In this document: positions 27,705 through 37,984 of the stretch, piece after piece
Numbering within the stretch: the first letter of the stretch is position 1
Layout: each line of letters begins with the position of its first letter
Virus record (IMG/VR): IMGVR_UViG_3300005577_000020
Span: 1-37,984 of that record
Source: a virus
Length of the DNA: 37,984 nucleotides
Direction: 5' to 3' (one strand)
Notes under the pieces: generated by a model
Seen by the model: only the letters and a program-made list of their open reading frames with translations
The model's database searches: none
What the model was told of the DNA's origin: nothing
Translations under genes and position numbers: made by a program

Positions 27705-28159
27705 CTGCGTGGGTGCTCGCCCTTATGCTCGTGCTGCAGCCGCGTGCGCCATGGGTGGACAGCTACCAAGACACCGCGCGAGCCATCGCGGACGTCACCG
27801 CCGAGGAGGAGCCTCTGTTCGCTGGACACCTCGGGCGACAGCGGACGGCCGCGCTACTCGTCGCCGTCGCGTGGTTCGAGTCGACGTTCCGCCCGGACGC
27901 TGTCGGTGACAAGGGGGCGGCCAAGTCGCTCTACCAGGTCCACGGTCCCATGCCGTCCGACGCGCGTCAGGCGACGCGGGAAGCGCTCGCCATGATGCGG
28001 GCGTCGTTCCGGGCGTGCCGCGCGCTACCGCTCGAGGAGCGCTTGGCTTGGTACGCGAGTGGTCTTGCGGACGGCTGCTCGAGCGACGCGGGCCGTCGCG
28101 CCTCGCGCCACCGCGTCGGGCTCGCGCTGAGGCTGTTCAGCAAGCACGCGCCACCGTAA
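27701..28159 (+). CDS. SLT-type lytic transglycosylase
   Basis: A 152-residue protein with an N-terminal hydrophobic segment (WVLALMLVLQP) that may be a signal peptide or signal anchor. It carries the SLT motif VAWFESTFRPDAVGD with the catalytic Glu at 60, then KSLYQVHG corresponding to the usual ASLxQ. It would cleave peptidoglycan with 1,6-anhydro product formation. It is the second cell-wall enzyme here, besides the lysozyme. GTG 27701 overlaps the preceding mini-gene. Only 4 bases separate its stop from the convergent 28164 gene. Confidence 0.82.
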   Translation: MTAWVLALMLVLQPRAPWVDSYQDTARAIADVTAEEEPLFAGHLGRQRTAALLVAVAWFESTFRPDAVGDKGAAKSLYQVHGPMPSDARQATREALAMMRASFRACRALPLEERLAWYASGLADGCSSDAGRRASRHRVGLALRLFSKHAPP

Positions 28160-29086: not shown

Positions 29087-30765
29087 GGCTTGTCTCCTTC
29101 GCGCTCGGCGAGGGCGGCGATACGCGTCGCGCAGTTCGCGGCGGACTCGCGATGCTCGAACGCGTAGCAGAGCGCCGTAACGCGGCACACTTGCTCCGCC
29201 TCCCGCAGCGCCTCCACCCTCCCAGCGCGTCGCTCAGCGGCGAGGATGGGCGCAACCTTCCTGACGACGTCTTGGCTGATCCACGTCACGTTTGGGTTAT
29301 GCGCACGCACCACCGCGAGCGCGCGGTCGTACTCCTCGACGTCGGGCGCGGCCCCCGGAGGGGAGGAAGAAGTGCCGGGAACGACAGGCGCCACCGCCCG
29401 GCTCGGCTCGTCGACCGTGTTAGGGCCCGTCTGCGCCCCCGCCATCTGTTTGCCCGTGCCCTTGCAGACTGGACACCGGCTCGTCACGTACACCGCCGGC
29501 ACCGGACCACCAGGCACGAGCGGCTTGGGTTGAGGGCCGGGAACGCGTCCCGTTCCCCCGCACCGCGCGCACCTCTCCTCGGCCGGCGGGGCGGGCTGCT
29601 TCGCATGACCCTCGACGTGCTCGGATCGAAGCAGACCGCACCAGCATCGGGTGTTCGGCAGTTCCAACGTGCAGGTGTCGCGCGCGTGACGCTGCCAGTA
29701 CCACCTCACACCGTCGAAGCCTGACGGAACCGGCATCAATCCGCACGCGCACTGCGCCTCGGGCTTATCCGCCTCCTTCACCTGCGGGGCGGCGCCGCCG
29801 CGGGCGCGGATGCGAGCGGCCAGTTCGTGCGCGGTCTCACACGCAGCGTCGTACGCGACGTCGGAGCCATCTGTTGCACGGCCCACGAGGCGGTCGCACT
29901 CCTTCGCGCATTCCTCCCGCTCGCGCGCCACCGCCTCGGCGATGCGGCGGTCGACGTCGGTACGCATCTTCTGGCGTGCTTCGAAGGACGCCTGCTCGAC
30001 GGTCGCCACAACATCTTGGCAATGCTTCCGCAACCGCTCGATCTCCTCGCGATACGCCGAGCACTGCGCGTCTCCTGTCGCGAGGAGGGCGGCGGCGAGG
30101 GATTCGGCGTCACGCAGCCGCCTGCAAAGGACGTCGACCGTGCGGCCCTGCTCGATCGTCAGCTCGCGGTACGCATCGAGCGACTTCTTCATCTCCTCCT
30201 CCGCCGCACCGCGCGCGGGCCACAACTTCACGAGCGCGTCACCGATCGCGCGAGCCAGCAAAGATGCCTGGTCGTGCATGGCAACGTTGTTGCTCTCGAC
30301 CGACCACACCTTGTGCTCGCCAGCGATCCAGACTGAACCGCGCTCGCCGACGCGGCTGTACGTCACCTCCGGCACGCCCGCGGGTGGGGTGAGACGAGCG
30401 CGCATCCATCGAATCGCGGTGTCGACGGCACCCTCGCTCTGCGACGGCTCGCCGGGCACTTCGTGCATGATGAAGTTCGCCAGCTGCTCCACCTGCTGCT
30501 CCAGGTCGCCCGCGGGCGGGGTGGCGAGGCGGTCCCGCATGCCGATGATGAACCCGCGCAGCGAGACGCCGTCACCAACCGCCAAACCAAGGTCTTCGCG
30601 AATGGCGCGTACCAACCACTGGTGACGCTCGACCTCGTCCCGCGCCTCGTCCCGCTGCCTCACCAGCGCCCGCACCGCCTCGTGGTACTCGCGCAGCACC
30701 CGCGCCAGTTCCACCTCCAGGCGGTGGATACTGGCGCGGCAGTCGATGTGACCGACGTCGACCAT
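29083..30765 (-). CDS. Large coiled-coil/zinc-finger protein of the recombination operon
   Basis: A 560-residue protein. Residues 1-100 form a coiled-coil start (LEVELARVLREYHEAVRALV). A long mostly helical middle follows with several Cys, then a Cys-rich part (about 340-440) with CACG, CWCG and two DnaJ-type CXXCXGXG units (CARCGGTG, CPVCKGTG), and a final helical domain. The DnaJ-type units bind zinc and often contact proteins or nucleic acid. ATG 30765 shares its A with the upstream stop. No enzyme motif is visible, and the fold is unknown. It seems unusual in size for this operon, where all other genes of unknown function are short. Confidence 0.75.
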   Translation of the reverse strand: MVDVGHIDCRASIHRLEVELARVLREYHEAVRALVRQRDEARDEVERHQWLVRAIREDLGLAVGDGVSLRGFIIGMRDRLATPPAGDLEQQVEQLANFIMHEVPGEPSQSEGAVDTAIRWMRARLTPPAGVPEVTYSRVGERGSVWIAGEHKVWSVESNNVAMHDQASLLARAIGDALVKLWPARGAAEEEMKKSLDAYRELTIEQGRTVDVLCRRLRDAESLAAALLATGDAQCSAYREEIERLRKHCQDVVATVEQASFEARQKMRTDVDRRIAEAVAREREECAKECDRLVGRATDGSDVAYDAACETAHELAARIRARGGAAPQVKEADKPEAQCACGLMPVPSGFDGVRWYWQRHARDTCTLELPNTRCWCGLLRSEHVEGHAKQPAPPAEERCARCGGTGRVPGPQPKPLVPGGPVPAVYVTSRCPVCKGTGKQMAGAQTGPNTVDEPSRAVAPVVPGTSSSPPGAAPDVEEYDRALAVVRAHNPNVTWISQDVVRKVAPILAAERRAGRVEALREAEQVCRVTALCYAFEHRESAANCATRIAALAEREGDKP

Positions 30766-35526: not shown

Positions 35527-35613
35527 GTGGCTCATCGTGAAACAAGTGCAGTGTGCAAGCAACGGGTGACGTTCGTTCACTGGTGGGCGTGCCGCCACCG
35601 GGGTGACGCGTGA
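35527..35613 (+). CDS. 28-residue ORF between cro and excisionase
   Basis: GTG 35527 follows AGGGGGG by 5 bases, and the stop overlaps the next start (GTGA). The peptide MAHRETSAVCKQRVTFVHWW, then CRHRGDA, is Cys/His/Trp-rich. The good ribosome site and the overlap are the only evidence, so it may be a real small regulator or only a translational link. Confidence 0.35.
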   Translation: MAHRETSAVCKQRVTFVHWWACRHRGDA

Positions 35614-35996
35614 CTCCGCCGCCGCGCGTTTTCACGGCGCAGGACATCGCGGCGCTCGTGCAGGTGAGCGAGTCGCACGCGTACGCGATCATGCGGCAGA
35701 TGCCGCACCGCAAGGTGGGGACGTGTATCCGGGTTCTCGAGGCTGATTTCTGGGCGTGGTGGGAGGCGGAGAAGACATGCGGATCTACAAGCGCGGAAAG
35801 TACTGGTGGTGCGCGTGGACTGAAGGCGGGCTCACTCTCCGGCGTTCTACCCGGTGCACCACGCGCCGGGCGGCGGAGATCGTCAGCGCGCGCTGGGAGC
35901 GCGAGCGAGCCGATCCGGCCTATCACGCCGCGAACACCGCGACGCTCGGCGCCGAGGCCCGCACCTTCCTCGACGAATGCAAAGCGGACGGCCTGA
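35610..35996 (+). CDS. Excisionase-like HTH protein overlapping integrase
   Basis: A 128-residue reading frame. Residues 1-55 (VFTAQDIAALVQVSESHAYAIM, RKVGTCIRVLEADFWAWWE) have the winged-HTH look of AlpA/HTH_17-type excisionases, which bend attachment-site DNA for Int. The remaining 73 residues are low-complexity Ser/Arg/Pro and run in another frame over the first 220 bases of integrase, so they may be a passenger tail. The functional part probably ends near residue 60. GTG 35610 overlaps the 28-residue ORF. Confidence 0.7.
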   Translation: MTPPPRVFTAQDIAALVQVSESHAYAIMRQMPHRKVGTCIRVLEADFWAWWEAEKTCGSTSAESTGGARGLKAGSLSGVLPGAPRAGRRRSSARAGSASEPIRPITPRTPRRSAPRPAPSSTNAKRTA

Positions 35997-37000
35997 GGCC
36001 GGGGACGCTCAACATGTACGACTGCAAGGTGGCCCACGTCTGTCGCTTGCTGGGCGCCAATACGCGCACTGCGGCCATCACCCCGCCGATGGTGATCGCG
36101 TACATCGCGCAGCGGCGCGTCGAGGGCGCGAGCGATTCCACCATCTATAAGGAGTGGGTTGCGCTCCGCGGCATCCTCAACAGCGCACGCCACCGCGGTC
36201 GCTACGCGCGCGATCCGGGCGCTCTGAAGCCGCCGCGGTTCTCGCCGTCGTACGAGCCGCGCCAGCGCTTCCTGTCGTGGGCCGAGCTCGGGCTCCTCTG
36301 TCTCTCCGGCGTGCTGCCCTTGCACCGTGCGCAGGCGGTCGCGTTCATCGTCGCCACTGGCGCCAGGCGCGCCGAGTTCCGCGCGGCGCAGGCGCACGAC
36401 GTCACCGATCGGACCGTCCACCTGCACGGGACGAAGACCGACTCGAGCAACCGCGTCATTCCGGTGCCGGCCACCTACCAGGCGCTCCTCGCGTTCGCCG
36501 GCCCGCCGCCGTTCGATCCGTGGACGAATGCGCGGCGCGATCTCGAGGAAGCATGCGCACGCGCCGGCGTCGAGCCGGTCACGTTCAACGATTTGCGCCG
36601 CACCTTCGCATCGCTCTTGGTGCAAGAGGGCGTGGCGCCTCACCTCGTGGGGAAACTGATGGGACACACGACGAGCGCGATGGTCGAAAGGGTCTATGGG
36701 CGGCAGTCGACGGAGGCGTTGGCGCGTCTGATCGATGGCCCATTGGCGTACCAGACGCCAGCACTCCAGGACGCACCGGACGGACCCAGTGAAGACGATT
36801 CACCGGTAAATCGTGGGCCGACCGGGACTCGAACCCGGGACCTACGGATTAAAAGGCCGGCGTCACCCGCTGCAATGCCCGCAGAAACCGGCGATATGGG
36901 CGCCGGCGTACCACCAGCGTACCAGGCGCCTGCACCCTGGCCATGGGGTCCGGCGCGCAAATTCCTGGTGGAGAGCGGGATGGTTCGGAGGGTGGCTTGA
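35777..37000 (+). CDS. int: Tyrosine integrase with attP inside its 3' end
   Basis: A 407-residue tyrosine recombinase. Residues 1-45 form an arm-binding beta domain (MRIYKRGKYWWCAW), 55-145 the core-binding SAM-like domain, and 165-320 the catalytic domain: R197 (ATGARRAE), K220 (GTKTDSS), then FNDLRRT with R274 and N271 where most members have His, H297 (MGHTT) and Y307. ATG 35777 has GGAGGCGGAG upstream. DNA for residues about 346-360 is the tRNA-Lys half, so the spurious-looking GPTGTRTRDLRIKR is encoded by attP. After integration, residues beyond about 360 would come from host DNA. Confidence 0.93.
   Translation: MRIYKRGKYWWCAWTEGGLTLRRSTRCTTRRAAEIVSARWERERADPAYHAANTATLGAEARTFLDECKADGLRPGTLNMYDCKVAHVCRLLGANTRTAAITPPMVIAYIAQRRVEGASDSTIYKEWVALRGILNSARHRGRYARDPGALKPPRFSPSYEPRQRFLSWAELGLLCLSGVLPLHRAQAVAFIVATGARRAEFRAAQAHDVTDRTVHLHGTKTDSSNRVIPVPATYQALLAFAGPPPFDPWTNARRDLEEACARAGVEPVTFNDLRRTFASLLVQEGVAPHLVGKLMGHTTSAMVERVYGRQSTEALARLIDGPLAYQTPALQDAPDGPSEDDSPVNRGPTGTRTRDLRIKRPASPAAMPAETGDMGAGVPPAYQAPAPWPWGPARKFLVESGMVRRVA
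36814..36855 (-). other. attP: attP core: 3' half of tRNA-Lys (UUU)
   Basis: On the minus strand this stretch reads as the anticodon loop CTTTTAA (anticodon UUU), the 3' anticodon strand TCCGT, variable loop, the complete T-arm (CCGGG/TTCGAGT/CCCGG), the 3' acceptor strand and the discriminator A. The 5' anticodon strand no longer pairs, so the identity starts at the loop. It is 42 bases of a tRNA, not a working tRNA. Site-specific integration into a host tRNA-Lys gene, restoring its 3' end, is the established mechanism for this arrangement. Confidence 0.88.
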
Positions 37001-37308
37001 GCGCCCGTGTCGACGCGCGCCCGCTCGGCGTGGACGCGCCCACGGCGTATCGGACGTACCTACGGTTCCGCGCACGCGACAACGCCGAGCGGCGGATCAC
37101 CATTGCCGCGACGGCGCATTTCTTCGATCGCCGCCAGCGCGGTCAGCGGTGCTCGTCATGCGGTGGCACGTCGACGCGTTTGCTCGCGCTTGCGTGCGCT
37201 GACCCGCTGGCGGCCGACGAGAACCCCGACACCACGCGCCTCTGGACGGGCCTCTGTCGTGGATGCGTCGAGGCGGTCGTCGACGCTGCTGAGGAGATGT
37301 GGCCGTGA
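36997..37308 (+). CDS. Zinc-ribbon protein after integrase
   Basis: A 103-residue protein with CSSCGGTS (about 54-60) and CRGC (about 88-91) pairs forming a zinc ribbon, and an N-terminal helical part. TTG 36997 is preferred: GGAGGG lies 4-5 bases upstream and the TTGA overlaps the integrase stop. GTG 37009 is the alternative. It overlaps the DnaA-like gene by 4 bases. It is the first gene after attP, so it would be cut off from the early promoter in the prophage. Confidence 0.75.
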   Translation: MSARVDARPLGVDAPTAYRTYLRFRARDNAERRITIAATAHFFDRRQRGQRCSSCGGTSTRLLALACADPLAADENPDTTRLWTGLCRGCVEAVVDAAEEMWP

Positions 37309-37583
37309 CCGCCGCCGCATCGTGGTTCCCCGGCACCATTCCGCCGGCGCCCATCCGCGCGCAGCTCGACGACATCGCCGCCGACGTCTGCGCCTCGCAC
37401 CGCGTGACGCTGGCCGAGCTGTTCGGCCGCGATCGCCACGCGGACATCGTCGCCGCCCGCAGGGAGTTCGCGGTCAGGGGGCGCGCCACGGGCGCCAGCT
37501 ACCCGGTGCTGGGGCGGTACATGGGGCGGGACCATTCTACGGTCCAGGCGCTGGTGAAGGGGCTCGGGTGGCACCGTGCGTGA
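37305..37583 (+). CDS. Stand-alone DnaA domain IV-like DNA-binding protein
   Basis: A 92-residue protein. Residues 25-90 match DnaA domain IV: helices ADIVAARREF, a middle SYPVLGRYM, and the DnaA-box-reading signature GRDHSTVQALVKGL (compare GRDHTTVLHA in DnaA). There is no ATPase domain. GAGGAG stands 8 bases before GTG 37305. Single DnaA-IV domains occur in phages, where they may bind DnaA-box-like sites to start phage or block host replication. Just before HNH and the helicase, on the replication side of attP. Confidence 0.85.
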   Translation: MTAAASWFPGTIPPAPIRAQLDDIAADVCASHRVTLAELFGRDRHADIVAARREFAVRGRATGASYPVLGRYMGRDHSTVQALVKGLGWHRA

Positions 37584-37984
37584 GGCAGACGCCCGGCGGT
37601 TCTGGCGCAGGGTCCGCAAGGGATATAGCTGCTGGGAGTGGACCGGGGCGCGGAACCAAAAGGGGCGCCGCGGCTACGGTCGCATCACGATCGGGCGGAA
37701 GGCCGATGGGACTCGGCGGGCCTGGCTGGCGCATCGCGTAGCGTGGCAACTCGCATACGGTCCGATCCCGGACGGCCTTTTCGTCTGCCACCACTGCGAC
37801 AACCCGGCATGCGTGCGGCCGGACCACCTATTCCTAGGTGACCAGGCCGCCAACATGTCGGATTGCGCGCGAAAGGGTCGGGCGCGTGGCCCGTCGCTAC
37901 GCGGCACACGCAACCCGAACGCGTCGTATGGCGACGACGTGGTCGCACGCGTGCGGGCGCTCGCGGCGGCCGGCGTACCTCGCG
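37576..37984 (+). CDS. HNH endonuclease, N-terminal part (continues at 1)
   Basis: GTG 37576 overlaps the DnaA-like stop. The protein has the HNH_3 pattern: WEWTGARNQKGRRGYGRI, AHRVAW, then CHHCDNPACVRPDHL with H72/H73, N76 and H84, and three Cys that can bind zinc. The frame is open at the window end and continues in the repeat copy at base 1 to a stop at 201-203 (163 residues in all). HNH enzymes near the packaging or replication genes can nick phage DNA or act as homing enzymes; here it sits in the replication operon. Confidence 0.93.
   Translation, partial: MREADARRFWRRVRKGYSCWEWTGARNQKGRRGYGRITIGRKADGTRRAWLAHRVAWQLAYGPIPDGLFVCHHCDNPACVRPDHLFLGDQAANMSDCARKGRARGPSLRGTRNPNASYGDDVVARVRALAAAGVPR
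37865..37984. repeat. Direct terminal repeat, right copy
   Basis: Identical to bases 1-120. It contains the HNH coding frame, whose continuation past the window end is found at 121-203. Removing one copy gives a 37,864-base circle. Confidence 0.97.

Follow-up and report, generated by a model that had tools for sequence, protein, structure and literature searches.

The window analysed here (37,984 nt, positions 1 to 37,984 of the virus record IMGVR_UViG_3300005577_000020) contains terminase, portal, helicase and exonuclease genes and a tyrosine integrase gene, int, whose reading frame runs through the phage attachment site. The arrangement is probably of the type described for the Myxococcus phage Mx8: int contains attP, the tail of the encoded protein would be mainly translated attP arm DNA, and integration would exchange the C-terminus of Int for one supplied by the host. 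An attP located within int is already known from Mx8, and the window phage is an additional member of a kind with few experimental examples (Mx8 and Mx9). Among the elements of Myxococcota, attP-spanning integrases are common.

The integrase gene and its attachment site

The int gene (35777-37000, plus strand) starts with ATG and encodes a phage form of 407 amino acids. The translated protein matches the Pfam family Phage_integrase (PF00589, E = 1.3e-12) and, over residues 2-320, the family phrog_1 (E = 1.6e-47). The catalytic columns R, H and Y are invariant in an alignment of three sequences including the window Int, and the invariant tyrosine column identifies the catalytic Tyr307 (Y307; codon at 36695-36697, plus strand). 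An excisionase candidate is encoded by an HTH ORF upstream of int (35610-35996, plus strand), which extends, in a different frame, into the beginning of int. The ORF is HTH_17-like, with a Pfam HTH_17 match under the gathering score (E = 7e-4) and a PHROG HTH match (E = 4.5e-4). A viral relative of the window (L002) likewise has an HTH ORF upstream of and overlapping int, and the position of the window ORF before int resembles that of uoi in Mx8.

The int frame runs antisense through the attP core (36813-36855, minus strand), a sequence of 43 bp that corresponds to the 3' half of tRNA-Lys(UUU) and covers the part between anticodon loop and discriminator base, both included. The core lies 3' of the catalytic tyrosine and starts around 39 codons past Y307. 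No complete tRNA was found in the window by ARAGORN, and the Rfam tRNA model gave a weak match at 36814-36880. A search of a genome contig collection with the exact 42-nt core pattern returned four matches, all of which are tRNA-Lys(TTT) genes in Polyangiaceae/Myxococcales MAGs; the core is therefore not a chance match. Because the exact core occurs in these four tRNA-Lys genes, the phage host is probably a myxobacterium, and the window probably represents a temperate phage of Myxococcota, more precisely of Polyangiaceae, which is predicted to integrate into the tRNA-Lys gene of its host. A lysogen of the window phage was not found, and the four MAGs with the exact core yielded no relatives of the window Int at 1e-8.

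A 19-nt direct repeat, GCGTACCAGRCGCCWGCAC, was found on both sides of the core by a repeat search, all of it within the int frame. Its copies lie at 36746-36764 (GCGTACCAGACGCCAGCAC) and 36917-36935 (GCGTACCAGGCGCCTGCAC, copy 2), both on the plus strand, and an additional copy of GCGTACCA is located at 36906-36913 on the same strand. The 19-nt repeats and the GCGTACCA copy at 36906 are good candidates for the arm-type sites of Int. Two further copies of GCGTACCA are located far from attP, at 28049-28056 and 30607-30614. In the best-supported interpretation, the 3'-terminal part of int is taken up by attP with its arm sites, and attP would thus be translated in part.

The protein-coding character of int fades in this region. 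The linker between the catalytic domain and the core (36713-36812, plus strand), which is attP arm DNA, shows a weak codon signal: compared with a GC3 of 0.87 in the body of Int, linker residues 313-346 have a GC3 of 0.59 (binomial p = 4e-5) and the tail has one of 0.65 (p = 1.4e-4). The codon bias weakens past approximately residue 325, and the codon composition of the tail is non-coding-like. AlphaFold2 assigned a pLDDT below 50 to nearly all residues from 311 to 407, which is weak evidence given the shallow alignment of three sequences. The fading codon bias could also mean that the true Int stops earlier and that the overlap with attP results from a contig frameshift or an assembly error, and the closest viral relatives do end at 331 and 362 amino acids (the former, L002, is 49% identical to the window Int). 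Homology, however, continues in frame past Y307 to around residue 320, the frame has no stop until 36998, and an overlap of int with a tRNA gene is common among the relatives; an artefact of this kind is very improbable. It was also considered whether an open frame through attP is improbable per se. This was rejected for the window, since in Markov DNA of the window's composition 12% of frames remain without a stop over 92 codons by chance.

At the 3' end of int, its stop codon and the TTG start codon of the following gene (36997-37308, plus strand) overlap in the sequence TTGA, and an SD-like GGAGGG precedes this start. This gene was recognized by its sequence and codon GC and encodes a protein of 103 amino acids with CxxC pairs. 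The overlap speaks against a tail that is purely a by-product and suggests that the end of the tail is truly translated and placed. Integration would also part int from these apparently coupled downstream genes, and this separation, rather than a change of the protein, might be its key effect if int is translationally coupled to the downstream early genes in the phage form. The TTGA overlap and the SD-like motif are consistent with such coupling, and the int gene of phage Mx9 overlaps its next gene (HNH) by 4 nt, but only a single coupled junction is present in the window and the int gene of Mx8 has no overlap with its next gene. Uncoupling as the main effect of integration is considered unlikely. 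The region 3' of int (36997-37984) encodes the small CxxC protein, a DnaA C-terminal-like HTH protein and an HNH endonuclease.

The predicted prophage form of the window integrase

The initial annotation had placed the residues of Int beyond about 360 past the attP core and, with Y307 upstream of the core, had expected an intact core enzyme in two forms, one with a phage tail and one with a host tail. The comparison of host and phage sequences confirms the position and supports the prediction that integration gives Int another C-terminus. The first differing base is 36856, so that the first altered residue is 360 (R in the phage form, S in the host-derived form) and residues 360-407 (36854-36997, plus strand) constitute a phage-specific tail, which would be swapped for host sequence on integration. 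In the proposed mechanism, Int would recombine the 43-bp core with the host tRNA-Lys gene, the crossover presumably taking place in the anticodon-loop region. The prophage int would keep residues 1-359, including all catalytic residues, and continue into the antisense strand of the 5' half of the host tRNA, while the 48-residue phage tail would be left at the opposite end of the prophage. R, H, Y and approximately 13-20 conserved residues past Y307 are retained in both forms, and the tails are exchanged 53 residues past Y307. In lambda-family integrases, a short segment directly after the tyrosine packs on the neighbouring protomer. The exchange point of the window Int lies beyond this segment, and a strong effect on catalysis is therefore not expected; the likely consequence would be at most a modest change of Int activity, as reported for Mx8.

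As suggested in the initial annotation, the fusion frame was rebuilt at host tRNA-Lys loci. The window was joined in silico to nine such loci from Myxococcota with at most two core mismatches, one gene being included twice (L010 and L082). This resulted in nine fused Int proteins of 363, 378, 370, 391, 363, 381, 378, 378 and 425 amino acids. In seven of the nine host tRNA-Lys genes, the int frame reads beyond the tRNA: it passes through without a stop at the usual D-loop length, and one extra D-loop base leads to an early stop. Since the stop depends on the length of the D loop, the host-encoded tail of the window phage would vary by host.

Comparison with known attachment sites within genes

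The closest precedent is Mx8. According to two papers (PMC6070905, PMC4701971), its attP is located inside int, which acquires a different 3' end on integration: 13 residues take the place of the 112-residue C-terminus of Int, and the enzyme of the prophage is less active or altered in its specificity. Integrases encoded across attP, such as those of Mx8 and SSV, are treated as a known exception in the Islander database (PMC4383910). With Mx8 as summarized from the original studies (Tojo 1996, Magrini 1999) in these sources (PMC6070905, PMC4701971, PMC4383910), the window shares the position of the core in int past the catalytic domain and its match to a myxobacterial tRNA gene, and it is predicted to share the replacement of the Int C-terminus on integration; unlike Mx8, which loses 112 residues, the window Int would lose 48. 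Both phages also have repeats flanking the core within int, those of Mx8 intP being annotated in D86464. The two integrases show no detectable homology in a blastp comparison (20.4 bits, E = 0.12), and Mx8 is absent from the tblastn matches of the window Int. As homology beyond the general fold family is not detectable, the window appears to be Mx8-like in its working without a sign of the same integrase lineage. The Mx8 target is reportedly a tRNA-Asp gene, the predicted target of the window phage a tRNA-Lys gene. A search of 356 Myxococcota genomes did not find the tRNA of the Mx8 host. Mx9, another temperate myxobacterial phage, is described as similar in principle (Julien 2003, cited in PMC6070905), and its int stop overlaps the next gene; it is a different phage with a different attachment site.

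The initial annotation had drawn a parallel to C-terminally tagged integrases of mycobacteriophages. This analogy is inexact because attP of the mycobacteriophage BPs splits the repressor gene and not int, and integration removes an ssrA-like tag from the repressor (PMC4557955). BPs and the window share an attP inside a gene whose product receives, or in the window is predicted to receive, another C-terminus on integration (PMC4557955); the single attP detected in the window, however, sits in int, for which Mx8 provides the better precedent (PMC6070905, PMC4701971). In the archaeal suicidal integrases of the SSV type, attP likewise lies within the integrase gene, but integration separates the N-terminal part from the catalytic C-terminal part and thereby inactivates the enzyme (PMC8371274), whereas all catalytic residues of the window Int stay together. 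Streptococcal ICEs in rumA also exchange the C-terminus of their integrase with host sequence; in contrast to the window, they use a serine recombinase and a protein-coding target (PMC4701971).

Integrated relatives and a stop codon antisense to the tRNA D arm

A protein search with the window Int in 377 Myxococcota genomes identified relatives in 22 of them. A second search at class level, in which a different family member was compared to 317 genomes, identified 26 genomes with relatives; the two sets overlap. A profile scan of genome contigs with the three-sequence alignment returned zero relatives. At most of the loci, a complete tRNA gene is located just downstream of int in convergent orientation, which corresponds to the integrated state. 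The int frame enters the tRNA gene in 26 elements (L029 was left out of this count, as its int is broken), and in 24 of these it stops at an identical site, a TGA antisense to U12-C13-A14 of the tRNA D arm. This frame is used at 19 of 20 tRNA-Phe genes, at all three tRNA-Met and both tRNA-Lys genes, but not at the one tRNA-Arg gene. In five other elements (L034, L035, L038, L092, L102), int stops ahead of the tRNA.

For seven elements in which int overlaps the tRNA, the phage form was rebuilt from the second core. Together with the window fusions of 363-425 amino acids and the integrated relatives in Myxococcota, these forms support the existence of two versions of Int at the sequence level. 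The prophage and phage tails are unlike in all seven, with 5 and 30 residues, respectively, in L015, 6 and 88 in L031, 5 and 18 in L033, 51 and 25 in L032, 4 and 22 in L096, 4 and 50 in L105, and 5 and either 7 (nearest core) or 17 (distal core) in L088. Owing to the same D-arm TGA stop, the prophage tails have a constant length of 4-6 amino acids, the one exception being the out-of-frame L032; the phage tails range from 7 to 88 amino acids and have no common length or sequence.

These tails bear on a further proposal of the initial annotation, namely that the phage tail sets the stability of Int or the balance between integration and excision, so that its loss on integration would be a regulatory event. 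Such a dedicated switch could be reconciled with the altered activity of the Mx8 prophage Int, as described for that phage (PMC6070905, PMC4701971), and the two Int forms demonstrably differ in sequence. A possible codon constraint is seen in L032 and L033, whose post-core DNA is homologous and, judged by eye, differs largely by synonymous changes when read in the frame of L033, a hint at constraint on some of the tails. The tails of the relatives, however, are unrelated (7-88 amino acids), the tail of the window has non-coding-like codon use and low model confidence, and in several members of the family Int is already complete ahead of the tRNA or the core. In the viral relative L003, which has an identical core, Int ends 41 bp before it, and an overlap of int and core is therefore not essential. 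An ssrA-like degron was considered and rejected: the phage form of the window Int ends in ...MVRRVA and those of the relatives in RRRAG, DEQA, RLE, RPK, VGK or SGSG, and no common ssrA-like terminus was found among them by eye. With its arm-type repeats and a chance of about 12% for an open frame of this length, the phage tail of the window gives little indication of a dedicated role, and a switch is improbable. In the preferred Mx8-type arrangement, the window tail would mainly be attP arm DNA with incidental translation, and integration would trim or replace this translated part of attP.

The common stop of the relatives raises the question of what is selected. In most tRNA-Phe genes, all three antisense frames are open, two of them running on into host DNA, so that the use of one frame in 19 of 20 cases is unexpected. 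The probability of this outcome by chance is 1.2e-8 if the cases are independent; shared ancestry lowers their independence, and counting by the 10 clusters at 60% identity (9 of 10 in this frame) gives approximately 3.6e-4. The tRNA-Met and tRNA-Lys cases are less informative because the other frames often close within the core. Between the catalytic tyrosine and the tRNA, the linkers vary from about 150 to 471 nt and are all in phase. Of 24 linkers, 20 are open compared to 7.1 expected from off-frame stop rates. Between close relatives, substitutions in the linker show only a weak bias by codon position (0.34/0.37/0.48, versus 0.34/0.28/0.47 in the body).

The preference at tRNA-Phe has the appearance of selection acting at the end of the prophage form. 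Selection might hold int in frame with the stop provided by the tRNA D arm of the host and leave the phage tails free to drift, an explanation that we consider to have slightly less than an even chance, given the 24 of 26 common stops, the tRNA-Phe frame use and the in-phase linkers on the one hand and the shared ancestry in 10 clusters on the other. The data suggest that selection, if acting at all, favours a clean end of the prophage Int. The window does not follow this pattern, as its int uses a different frame, which continues beyond the tRNA at seven of nine tRNA-Lys genes. The initial annotation had named an immediate host-side stop at about the same place in all relatives as evidence against its proposal; such a stop largely applies to the relatives, of which 24 of 26 share one position in the tRNA, and does not apply to the frame of the window. 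It is tentatively proposed, at slightly less than even odds, that the int frame in integrative elements across Myxococcota is kept such that U12-C13-A14 of the host tRNA, read antisense, supplies the TGA, resulting in a short constant prophage tail and a drifting phage tail, with the window phage as a natural read-through exception. Selection at the prophage end is compatible with the Mx8-type arrangement for the family, the window being the exception. If this frame rule is true, a conserved tRNA structure shapes the end of the integrase protein from the antisense strand, the prophage form is the form seen by selection, and the purpose of the C-terminal swap in Mx8 becomes directly testable. 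A literature search, in which subscription papers were thinly covered and which is not proof of absence, returned nothing relevant on integrase stops supplied by a tRNA or on Int frames running antisense into a tRNA.

Three further Int copies (L030, L021, L103) have a phage-type tail and no complete tRNA adjoining, and possibly lie on free phage or island contigs; the core peptides of L030 and L021 resemble those of the integrated copies L031 and L036. Two extra tRNA-Phe core copies are present upstream of int in L088/L114 (G423:C288) and suggest tandem elements at one site. The att sites of L033/L053, L032/L061, L088/L114, L096/L117 and L105/L123 are spaced approximately 7-15 kb apart, and many carriers of this integrase family are therefore probably not full phages but satellites or islands.
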